In this document: piece after piece, positions 13,149 through 14,606 of the stretch
How the letters are laid out: every line of letters begins with the position of its first letter
Numbering within the stretch: the stretch's first letter is position 1
Source: Ignavibacteria bacterium
Lineage (GTDB): Bacteria > Bacteroidota > Ignavibacteria > Ignavibacteriales > Melioribacteraceae
Direction of reading: 5' to 3'
Length of the DNA stretch: 38,307 nt
NCBI GenBank assembly: GCA_009773205.1
Contig: WPAE01000013.1
Location: 1 to 38,307 of the forward strand
Program-made: the position numbers and the translations under genes
The notes under the pieces: model-generated
What the model was told of the DNA's origin: nothing
Databases searched by the model: none
What the model saw: only the letters and a program-made list of their open reading frames with translations

Positions 13149-13167
13149 GAAATTCATATTACTTTTG

Positions 13168-13266
13168 TGGAGCTAAGCGGGTTCTTCCGAAATCAATAAT
13201 CTGTATGTATCGGAATCCCTTTGGGAGAACCGCTGACCTTCCCGAATTTCATTCGGGACGCTCTCC
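13168..13266 (-). pseudogene. Partial tRNA-Ala copy with T-loop insertion and GAA anticodon arm
   Basis: Read on the minus strand this matches the intact tRNA-Ala (13526-13598) from the D-arm (GGAGAGCG) to the 3' end (TAGCTCCA). The 22 bases at 13163-13184, which include flanking TTTTG, are identical to 13521-13542. The 5' acceptor strand and first half of the D-arm are missing. The anticodon arm is replaced by CCCGA-ATGAAAT-TCGGG, still a perfect stem with a 7-base loop (would read GAA). The T-loop holds a 42-base insertion (13185-13226) that is itself self-complementary. It cannot be a functional tRNA as it stands. Confidence 0.8.
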
Positions 13267-13506
13267 ATTACTTATTAATCCTTCAATGTATTTTCTACTT
13301 TTCTTCTTTTTTATTTCATTCTCTCTTCGTACGGCTTCAGACCTATCCGAATATTCCTCGAAGTATTTTAGCTCCCATTGCAATCCACCTTTTGTAGATT
13401 TTGAGTAACCAGAATTGTGCTGACTTATTCTTCTTTCAATGTTATCTGTTGAACTACAGTAGTATTTATTGGTTGTCTTGCTAAATAGTATGTATGTATA
13501 AAACAT
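13249..13506 (-). CDS. GIY-YIG nuclease-domain protein, tRNA-associated
   Basis: 85 aa, normal for stand-alone small GIY-YIG proteins. Seen: FYTYILFS (GIY strand), KYYCSSTDNIERRISQHN (YIG strand, with the usual Gly replaced by Ser and the conserved Arg and HN retained), and the RRENEIKKKKSRKYIE helix carrying the candidate catalytic Glu. The gene starts 20 bases after the 3' end of tRNA-Ala on the same strand. It ends inside the tRNA-like copy: the last residues SNGERPE are encoded by the D-arm/anticodon-arm sequence and the TGA stop is in the anticodon loop. Stand-alone GIY-YIG proteins are presumed nucleases; none of this subgroup's function is certain. Confidence 0.8.
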   Translation of the reverse strand: MFYTYILFSKTTNKYYCSSTDNIERRISQHNSGYSKSTKGGLQWELKYFEEYSDRSEAVRRENEIKKKKSRKYIEGLISNGERPE

Positions 13507-13525
13507 ATTTGGGGAAAGGATTTTG

Positions 13526-13598
13526 TGGAGCTAAGCGGGTTCGAACCGCTGACCTTCTGAATGCCATTCAGACGCTCTCCCAACTGAGCTATAGCCCC
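13526..13598 (-). tRNA. tRNA-Ala(GGC)
   Basis: 73 bases folding as a complete cloverleaf: acceptor GGGGCTA/TAGCTCC (one G-U), D-arm GCTC/GAGC, anticodon stem TCTGA/TCAGA with loop ATGGCAT (anticodon GGC), T-arm AGCGG-TTCGAAC-CCGCT, discriminator A. CCA is not encoded. A TTTG-N19-TAAATTTG promoter lies 20 bases upstream. Confidence 0.97.
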
Positions 13599-13765: not shown

Positions 13766-14167
13766 ATGAAACCAAAGCGAATATTCTTAGTTTATTTTGC
13801 AGCAGCAAGTCTTTTCTTTTGTGGGTGCGATGATACTTTAACAAACCAGGATCTTGACAGCAAAATTATCCCTACTTCTAATGTAAGCTTCGGAGAGTAC
13901 ATTCAGCCGGTTTTCCGGTTAAAATGCAACAATACAAATTGCCATAACTCTCAAGATAGAGCAGGCAGATTAAGTTTGGATACTCACGCAGATGCCACTA
14001 ACAACGTTTTGGTAGTATTCCCCGGAATGCCGGATAACAGCAAACTTGTTTGGGCAATTGAAGGAAGAACAACATCGCCAATGCCGCCTGTTGGATGGGC
14101 GCCTTTAACAAAAAACCAGATTAACGGAATTAGAACTTGGATTAATGAAGGTGCTAAAAACAACTGA
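13766..14167 (+). CDS. Cytochrome c-like lipoprotein with CX4CH motif
   Basis: 133 aa. A lipoprotein signal ends at C21 (LFFCGC), so it is anchored in a membrane facing the periplasm or outside. The mature part has the 'VFRLKCNNTNCHNS' segment with C54, C59 and H60, 'RLSLDTHAD', 'VFPGMPDNSKLVW', M106 in 'SPMPPVGW', and 'QINGIRTWINEGAK'. This is the layout of planctomycete-type cytochrome c domains, which normally have CX2CH. Here the spacing is CX4CH, a spacing known in some multihaem cytochromes. It may bind haem with M106 as distal ligand, or be a non-haem relative. Overlaps the next gene by 23 bases. Confidence 0.75.
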   Translation: MKPKRIFLVYFAAASLFFCGCDDTLTNQDLDSKIIPTSNVSFGEYIQPVFRLKCNNTNCHNSQDRAGRLSLDTHADATNNVLVVFPGMPDNSKLVWAIEGRTTSPMPPVGWAPLTKNQINGIRTWINEGAKNN

Positions 14168-14606
14168 GAAAAATTCCGGGGTTTACCTTTTAGAAATTCA
14201 AGTCAGAGAACCTATTCAAATAAAAGCGAAGAAGTTTTTGAACCATAAGTTTCCTAAAGGATTTTATTACTATTCCGGAAGTGCTCAAAAAAATTTACAA
14301 CAACGGATAGAACGCCACTTACGCAAAGAAAAAATTATTCATTGGCACGTAGATCACCTTACTGCCAACCCATCGGCAGAAATTAAAACCGTCTTTATTG
14401 CTAACGAAGCAAATAAAATTCTTGAATGCGAAATGATAAAAACTTTACAAATTAATTTTGAGATGGAAATTGCAGTAGAAGGTTTTGGAAATGGTGACTG
14501 CATTAACTGCAACAGCCACCTTTTCTATTCAAAAAAGAAGATTGATTACAACCATTTAATCTCTTTGTACCAATCAATAGTACGCTTTATTCCCTCTTCC
14601 AAATAA
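14145..14606 (+). CDS. DUF123 / GIY-YIG-like (Uri superfamily) nuclease
   Basis: 153 aa. The family layout is visible: GVYLLEIQV (residues 12-20, the GIY strand), KFPKGFYYYSGSA (35-47, the YIG strand), RIERHLRKEK, then IIHWHVDHLTA. A Cys-containing loop GNGDCINCNSHLFYS follows near residue 115-130. DUF123 proteins are stand-alone nuclease-like proteins, common in archaea and scattered in bacteria; substrate unknown. Its start lies inside the end of the lipoprotein gene, suggesting translational coupling, and its 3' end overlaps the convergent reductase gene by 61 bases. Confidence 0.8.
   Translation: MKVLKTTEKNSGVYLLEIQVREPIQIKAKKFLNHKFPKGFYYYSGSAQKNLQQRIERHLRKEKIIHWHVDHLTANPSAEIKTVFIANEANKILECEMIKTLQINFEMEIAVEGFGNGDCINCNSHLFYSKKKIDYNHLISLYQSIVRFIPSSK

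Follow-up and report, generated by a model that had tools for sequence, protein, structure and literature searches.

Small GIY-YIG nuclease genes paired with hairpin-bearing partial copies of tRNA genes in Bacteroidota and nearby phyla

Introduction

In REP elements with their RAYT transposases, a nuclease-type gene is flanked by DNA modules that form hairpins; such modules also occur singly elsewhere in the genome, and the RAYT enzymes belong to the Y1 HUH family. In Neisseria, the Ssn proteins are reportedly small GIY-YIG single-strand nucleases linked to palindromic NTS repeats, their targets being said to be dispersed repeats. A close functional precedent for the locus studied here is SegB, a free-standing GIY-YIG homing endonuclease of T-even phages (PMC13096335, PMC2988022). 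In phage T6, SegB is encoded next to tRNA genes and cuts within tRNA genes, 23 of its 83 mapped sites share the motif RAWTSGAAC, and the enzyme is required for tandem amplification of tRNA-Tyr together with segB by recombination (PMC13096335). That paper reports no isotype preference, and it names as open the question of how a selfish nuclease beside an essential target spares its own donor (PMC13096335). Fragments of prokaryotic tRNA genes have been attributed to integration and to a CRISPR array, in passages that make no mention of GIY-YIG nucleases (PMC9897764).

Here, we analyzed a stretch of 38,307 nucleotides (hereafter the window) from an Ignavibacteria bacterium, contig WPAE01000013.1 of assembly GCA_009773205.1, together with related loci in other genomes. 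A preliminary description of the window, made from its letters, had proposed that a GIY-YIG gene wedged between a tRNA-Ala and a tRNA-like copy might be a tRNA-targeting mobile nuclease unit not described as such.

Results

A GIY-YIG gene between tRNA-Ala and a remodelled copy of it

ARAGORN, Rfam, Pfam, and BLAST agree with the preliminary description on the order of the minus strand, namely tRNA-Ala, GIY-YIG gene, and partial tRNA-Ala copy. The features are as follows.

13525..13598, minus strand: intact tRNA-Ala (GGC), the host gene carrying the unit (ARAGORN; Rfam RF00005, 66.2 bits)
13507..13524, minus strand: spacer of 18 bases between the tRNA and the nuclease ATG; its opening AAAA is found again past the partial copy
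13249..13506, minus strand: single-domain GIY-YIG nuclease gene, 85 aa, with its ATG at 13506 and its final residues encoded in the tRNA copy
13163..13266, minus strand: partial remodelled tRNA-Ala copy, from the D-arm to the 3' end plus CAAAA (BLAST blocks 34/40 and 22/22)
13240..13258, minus strand: hairpin TCCCGAAT-GAA-ATTCGGGA in place of the copy's anticodon arm, holding the nuclease stop at 13249-13251
13185..13226, minus strand: 42-base insert with two hairpins, between C56 and G57 of the copy's T-loop
13163..13184, minus strand: exact 22-base repeat of 13521-13542, from T-loop residue 57 to the 3' end plus CAAAA

Within the assembly, the intact tRNA-Ala is the sole match to this sequence at E ≤ 1e-8, and the 85-aa ORF matches the Pfam GIY-YIG catalytic domain (PF01541) significantly, at 60.1 bits for a cut-off of 22.6. 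The gap between tRNA and gene, first given as 19 bases, measures 18 by ARAGORN's end and 19 from the discriminator base. BLAST aligns the tRNA with its copy in one block running from the D-arm to the T-arm (34/40 identical, E 2e-8) and a second block (22/22, E 6e-9), the latter being the 22-base identity reported earlier, which a comparison of the letters found to be exact. The proposed span of the copy, from D-arm to 3' end, thus holds, but within it the anticodon arm has been replaced by a hairpin and 42 bases have been inserted in the T-loop. Similarly, the nuclease frame does enter the copy and end at TGA, but because the anticodon arm is replaced, that stop sits in the replacement hairpin and not, as first thought, in a copied anticodon loop. 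In another genome (L034), a tRNA-Asp copy contains the same 19 letters as this hairpin, and the first T-loop hairpin of the window copy, TCCC-AAA-GGGA, is the mini-hairpin form seen in the family described below. Folded as single-stranded DNA, the copy reaches -20.1 kcal/mol versus a shuffle mean of -10.5 (z -3.98; 0/200 shuffles equal it). The window unit is single rather than tandem; it belongs to this family, having its tRNA less than 300 bp away on the same strand and a partial copy of it besides. A DUF123 gene lies near the locus (window 14145-14606), and gene order is alike in several relatives.

The preliminary description saw in the 22-base repeats the direct repeats left by integration at a tRNA. 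tRNA 3'-end direct repeats do flank the window gene, and tRNAs are classic attachment sites (PMC9897764), as expected if the locus were the remnant of ordinary tyrosine-recombinase integration with the att repeats of an island or prophage. However, no integrase is present in the 436-base interval 13163-13598, in which the sole gene checked with Pfam is the GIY-YIG gene; the copies contain hairpins; in 25/124 loci of the family (five places counted twice) the tRNA is downstream and the copies are of its 5' half; and some arrays repeat one gene plus one copy in tandem. We therefore consider this explanation very improbable, and integrase-type integration was rejected on the missing integrase and the 5'-half copies.

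The window nuclease and its relatives

The window protein keeps Y5, R26, and E62, but the glycine of its YIG motif is replaced by S18, giving Y-C-S instead of Y(I/V)G at a position that is glycine in at least 90% of aligned members. A Y17A/G19A double mutant of SegB is inactive (PMC13096335), the equivalence of these residues to the family's YIG positions being read off the alignment of SegB with the domain of L061. Judged by its YCS motif, the window nuclease may therefore be losing activity or be inactive. On a tree, it stands beside five tRNA-Ala units of Cytophagales, joined by a poorly resolved fork; these neighbors are tRNA-Ala units of Belliella, Algoriphagus, Spirosoma, and another Cyclobacteriaceae record, and the best identity, 62%, is to a tRNA-Ala unit of Algoriphagus (L226). 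The solved structures nearest by sequence are 1zg2 (E 1.8e-12), 1ywl (3.9e-8), and SLX1 (1.2e-6).

Small GIY-YIG genes are frequently adjacent to tRNA genes

A comparison of one genome per species found PF01541 matches in 39/39 genomes, including the window's own. Among the best PF01541 matches listed, 125 loci were reduced to 121 by leaving out L002 (the same place as L005) and L006, L007, and L009, whose frames are long or unmatched. The 121 loci come from 32/39 genomes and have frames shorter than 260 aa; one listed row, with a 1339-aa frame, is outside the locus set. A tRNA is found within 300 bp in 59/121 loci, in all 59 on the nuclease strand, while 2/121 have tRNA fragments only and 60/121 neither tRNA nor fragment (ARAGORN plus BLAST). 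The density of same-strand tRNAs falls from 0.958/kb within 300 bp to 0.030/kb at 300-600 bp and to 0 at 600-1200 bp; no opposite-strand tRNA is found within 1200 bp of these nuclease genes. The nearest tRNA is upstream in 44 of the 59 loci, downstream in 14, and between units in one. When it is upstream, the gene-adjacent copies are mostly of the 3' part, and when it is downstream, of the 5' part.

A wider contig scan with five members as query yielded 188 relatives. Among the best 80 of these 188, a tRNA is present within 300 bp in 65 (a share biased upwards, the query members being tRNA-associated), seven have none, and eight without a tRNA are no more than 150 bp from the end of a contig; 75/76 near genes are co-oriented. 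The 59/121 and 65/80 sets are not independent, as they share six places, five of them tRNA-adjacent. By record titles, the 65 tRNA-adjacent loci belong to Bacteroidetes and many of its families, Ignavibacteria, Cloacimonadota, Balneola, Marinimicrobia, Zixiibacteriota, KSB1, and Chlorobiota, with single MAGs titled Parcubacteria and Thioalkalivibrio. Chance local duplication or an assembly artefact might be invoked for the window, whose assembly is fragmented into 476 contigs. The same architecture nevertheless occurs in several phyla and in single-contig genomes (G013, G024, G035, G037, and G038), and this family-wide recurrence led us to reject an artefact, the probability of which we regard as negligible.

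Searches of PADLOC and PHROGs gave weak matches only; plasmids gave no match at E 1e-8 and phages one distant match (E 1e-5). Five loci were found on viral contigs, none of them (0/5) with a tRNA within 300 bp and one near a contig end. The source genome itself has nine PF01541 matches. These include a partial 5' tRNA-Arg copy with a 55-base hairpin insert, followed by a GIY-YIG gene and an intact tRNA-Arg(CCT) (L001); a tRNA-Cys followed by a GIY-YIG gene, a partial 3' copy with a hairpin, and a second GIY-YIG copy with an internal stop (L005); a decayed GIY-YIG gene ahead of a tRNA-Ser (L008); and a GIY-YIG gene amid REP-like palindromes with no tRNA (L003). At the tRNA-Arg locus (L001:1501-1815), the nuclease frame enters the intact tRNA and stops in its anticodon loop, and the former upstream region is now 5' of the partial copy; this tRNA may depend on the nuclease transcript. 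In one of the 60 loci of the 121 with neither tRNA nor fragment (L058:636-1323), a GIY-YIG gene lies immediately 3' of a tmRNA, and the 3' end of this tmRNA is partially copied, the copy being interrupted by about 20 bases.

Hairpins often interrupt the tRNA copies

The preliminary description had suggested looking for a second, partial copy of the same tRNA at such loci. When each locus's own nearest tRNA was compared with its 400-bp surroundings at E ≤ 1e-3, same-strand partial copies were found in 53/59 loci of the first set and 55/65 of the wider scan. The opposite strand gave 0 and 1, and a randomly drawn tRNA of another isotype gave 0 and 3, respectively. Lenient limits gave 51/59 and 63/65, but they are uncontrolled and we prefer the stricter, controlled counts. 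Copy boundaries vary, so that they single out no one cut position. The nuclease stop lies inside or past the copy start in 13/26 loci with a 3' copy.

In all, 133 distinct sequences were gathered that break into the tRNA copies or take the place of parts of them. With mononucleotide shuffles, 110/133 fold at z < -1.5 (median -3.8), a proportion to be read in light of the fact that most of the 133 are replacements and that a merely diverged anticodon arm would fold too; break-finding yielded an insert at z < -1.5 in only 37/59 and 37/65 loci. Of the 35 pure insertions, 17 lie in the T-loop, 12 are found in the D region, and six are near the anticodon loop; 26/35 fold at z < -1.5. A separate motif search retrieved 16 distinct T-loop inserts, of which seven are made up of a pair of perfect mini-hairpins and nothing else, 9+9 or 11+11 bases long with loops of three bases (L028, L038, L061, L065, L073, L122, and L124). 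The seven sequences are all different and every stem is fully paired; the inserts conserve pairing rather than sequence. A TCCCG opening with a CGGGA closing is found in 34/133 inserts. In two seemingly intact tRNAs (L143:1501-1574 and L164:1392-1468), the anticodon stem is the copies' TCCCGA...TCGGGA-type hairpin, perhaps as a result of gene conversion from a copy. Elsewhere (L264, L173, L220, and L221), repeated tRNA copies adjoin an intact tRNA with no nuclease gene between, and they look like non-autonomous derivatives.

Intact tRNAs have a clear excess of G·U pairs on the sense strand (307/3181 sense versus 135/2924 antisense), whereas insert stems have none, either overall (36/1079 versus 50/1098) or in pure insertions (21/405 versus 32/409). 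Selection on RNA would be expected to leave a G·U excess, which the stems do not have, and the hairpins are therefore probably selected at the DNA level. This bears on an RNA toxin-antitoxin explanation, in which the nuclease would cleave one tRNA isotype and a co-transcribed, uncuttable pseudo-tRNA would be its RNA antidote. Such a system would fit with isotype tracking (see below), strict co-orientation, repeated pseudo-tRNA copies, and the ORF stops within or past copy starts. The absence of an RNA-strand bias led us to reject a purely RNA-level role as first choice, and the explanation also sits poorly with solo copies that have no nuclease and with related units, devoid of a tRNA, that lie between inverted repeats in protein genes. 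We find it quite improbable.

The units are present or absent at the same tRNA gene

Among the 30 best matches to tRNA-Ala(GGC), the window included, 13/29 other loci share at least one window neighbor (epimerase, DUF123, PSCyt1, HTH, or MATE), and a GIY-YIG gene is found in two, the window and L150. In the latter, an order-level relative with the same gene order, the unit is on the opposite, 5' side of tRNA-Ala and has a 5' copy. Empty sites, for which the preliminary description had predicted a single tRNA-Ala, do exist: L127 and L129 (same genus), L132, and L137 have window neighbors and one tRNA-Ala, with no insert and no copy. Four other loci (L140, L148, L152, and L153) have a solo tRNA-Ala copy without a nuclease, so that solo copies amount to 4/30 for Ala and 1/30 for Arg (opposite-strand controls, 1 and 0).

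For tRNA-Arg(CCT), a GIY-YIG gene is present in 4/30 loci compared. Within the genus, the site is filled in two of six genomes (G000 and G003) and empty in four (G001, G002, G004, and G005), with the same gene lying downstream; in G002 the comparison covers 300 bp on the upstream side of the tRNA, and another contig of this genome has a tRNA-Arg fragment of 41 bases. Two single-contig genomes have tandem arrays, of 5.3 units of 450 bp by a tRNA-Leu (L059) and of 5.0 units of 315 bp by a tRNA-Asp (L105). Mobility is supported by these arrays, by the empty sites within the genus, and by the unit of L150 across the same tRNA-Ala. The existence and mobility of the family are well supported, and so is the earlier suggestion of a mobile unit: empty sites were found, and so was tRNA similarity at homologous loci.

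Nuclease lineages and tRNA isotypes

A tree of 117 tRNA-associated nucleases, from which identical proteins were removed and in which L195 (next to a tRNA of unknown isotype) was labeled tRNA-Pro by hand, requires 39 isotype changes, compared with a shuffled mean of 87.0 (0/200 as low). A second tree, of 116 nucleases labeled by isotype or none (five of the 121 rows were too short and were left out), requires 20 changes, compared with a mean of 55.2 (0/200 as low). Both trees rest on 73-74 columns and have many poorly resolved forks, and the shuffles ignore near copies. As judged from these sequences, nuclease lineages appear largely faithful to one tRNA isotype, across phyla; scattered labels exist, such as Ser(TGA), with four changes for four rows. 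The altered arm is mildly tied to isotype: after removal of six loci duplicated between sets, the fraction of same-isotype locus pairs sharing an altered-arm set is 0.396, compared with 0.258 expected, and 5/5000 permutations, which ignore kinship, are as high.

In the 116-nuclease tree, 46/59 rows without a tRNA form one clade (L003, L013, L020, L063, L070, and others), many of them lying in REP-like palindrome arrays with direct repeats on both sides. These rows invite comparison with Ssn: the family might consist of site-specific single-strand DNA nucleases for which the hairpin-bearing tRNA copies are recognition repeats serving genome dynamics or DNA uptake, and not homing. Consistent with this, palindromes at 47 non-tRNA loci, including L003, occur at 3.89/kb within 400 bp and 1.85/kb beyond 800 bp, and the insert stems resemble DNA hairpins. 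On the other hand, palindromes at tRNA loci are not raised near the gene (2.47/kb near versus 3.67/kb far), and dRS3-like palindromes are found in 6/47 non-tRNA loci and 0/59 tRNA loci, which gives no support to this motif as a general target of the non-tRNA loci. Moreover, such a role would, alone, leave unexplained the isotype fidelity, the sparing of the tRNA, and the presence or absence of units at the same tRNA gene. We judge it unlikely.

Seven other loci (L022, L030, L057, L089, L095, L109, and L113) have no tRNA, and their GIY-YIG gene is enclosed by inverted repeats such as CCCGTGAGATA...TATCTCACGGG, the whole measuring about 290 bp. This lineage is nested near the tRNA-Cys units, and when the DNA was read by eye, 5/7 of its units appeared to interrupt tyrosine or integron integrase genes. 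The inverted-repeat unit is possibly among the smallest autonomous insertion elements.

Discussion

The reading that we favor, and consider somewhat probable, is that these loci are minimal mobile elements, the chromosomal counterpart of SegB, each consisting of an isotype-adapted GIY-YIG nuclease and a remodelled segment of its target tRNA. Each nuclease lineage would be adapted to one tRNA isotype and would cut DNA inside that tRNA gene, probably at a loop-encoding sequence such as that of the T-loop. Recombinational repair would then copy the element beside the tRNA, with one intact tRNA retained and tandem duplication possible. The partial copy, which keeps the tRNA stems and has hairpin-filled loops or arms, would be a version that the nuclease no longer cuts, or cuts differently. 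What the sequences show is the family itself, its tracking of isotype, the sparing of the tRNA, the empty sites, the tandem arrays, and the architecture of the hairpins; we infer that the nuclease cleaves, where it cuts, that it homes, and that the hairpins protect the copy. The reverse complement of the SegB motif, GTTCSAWTY, equals the tRNA T-loop consensus, an observation of this analysis. GTTCSAWTY is present in 63/129 distinct intact tRNAs and GTTCRANTY in 116/129, and the T-loop inserts split the GTTCRANTY stretch between C and R. Protection of the T-loop as the sole rule is ruled out by 41 partial copies that retain an uninterrupted T-loop, so if the model is right, the altered arm must differ between lineages. 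A point against the model is that the intact neighboring tRNA would remain a target. Others are the missing YIG glycine of the window nuclease, the variable copy boundaries, and the roughly one half of small GIY-YIG loci (60/121) in which neither a tRNA nor a fragment of one was found by ARAGORN and BLAST.

A broader version of this reading, which we offer tentatively and with some doubt, is that the loci form an unrecognized, large class in which a nuclease of about 80 codons is joined to a DNA mimic of the tRNA gene that it targets, the mimic being "locked", and lineages partition the tRNAs, as well as tmRNA, by isotype. The altered loops would be closed by hairpins, often paired, and since hairpin sequence is free while pairing is conserved, recognition would be of folded DNA structure. 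In related lineages, REP-type palindromes, or mini-elements with inverted repeats that lie within integrase genes, would have taken over from the tRNA association.

This is apparently a large, undescribed family of minimal selfish elements. The preliminary description's impression of novelty agrees with full-text searches of open-licence literature, where none of the top-ranked papers listed describes bacterial GIY-YIG units that are paired with tRNAs. If our reading is true, a widespread and very small mobile element would be added to the known set. In Bacteroidota and nearby phyla, it would account for many "tRNA fragments" and for GIY-YIG genes whose tails are encoded by a tRNA. It would also provide nucleases that form a natural series and appear to distinguish tRNA genes by isotype. 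With the hairpin-locked copies, one could test directly by what means a selfish nuclease might spare its own donor while residing next to an essential target.

Comparison with known systems highlights similarities and differences. The REP-array clade resembles Ssn in combining a small GIY-YIG protein with palindromic repeats, but the tRNA units differ in that Ssn reportedly targets dispersed repeats and not tRNA genes. UPF0213 proteins and the SLX1 nuclease domain, the latter titled a structure-specific endonuclease, are nearest among solved structures by sequence; they are not known to be mobile or tied to tRNA genes. REP elements and RAYT enzymes differ from GIY-YIG units in that the enzyme family (Y1 HUH) and the target are unrelated. 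SegB is phage-borne and much longer, 221 aa versus 85 aa for the window protein, and it aligns weakly with the 74-aa domain of L061, over 25 columns of the catalytic domain only (E 0.015), with no homology along the protein; at the T4 segB locus there are no convincing tRNA copies, the four matches having E values of 0.13-0.46. SegB nevertheless shares with the family a GIY-YIG catalytic domain, a gene that in T4 adjoins tRNAs in the same orientation, the association with tRNA genes, and the tandem amplification of a tRNA with its nuclease gene.
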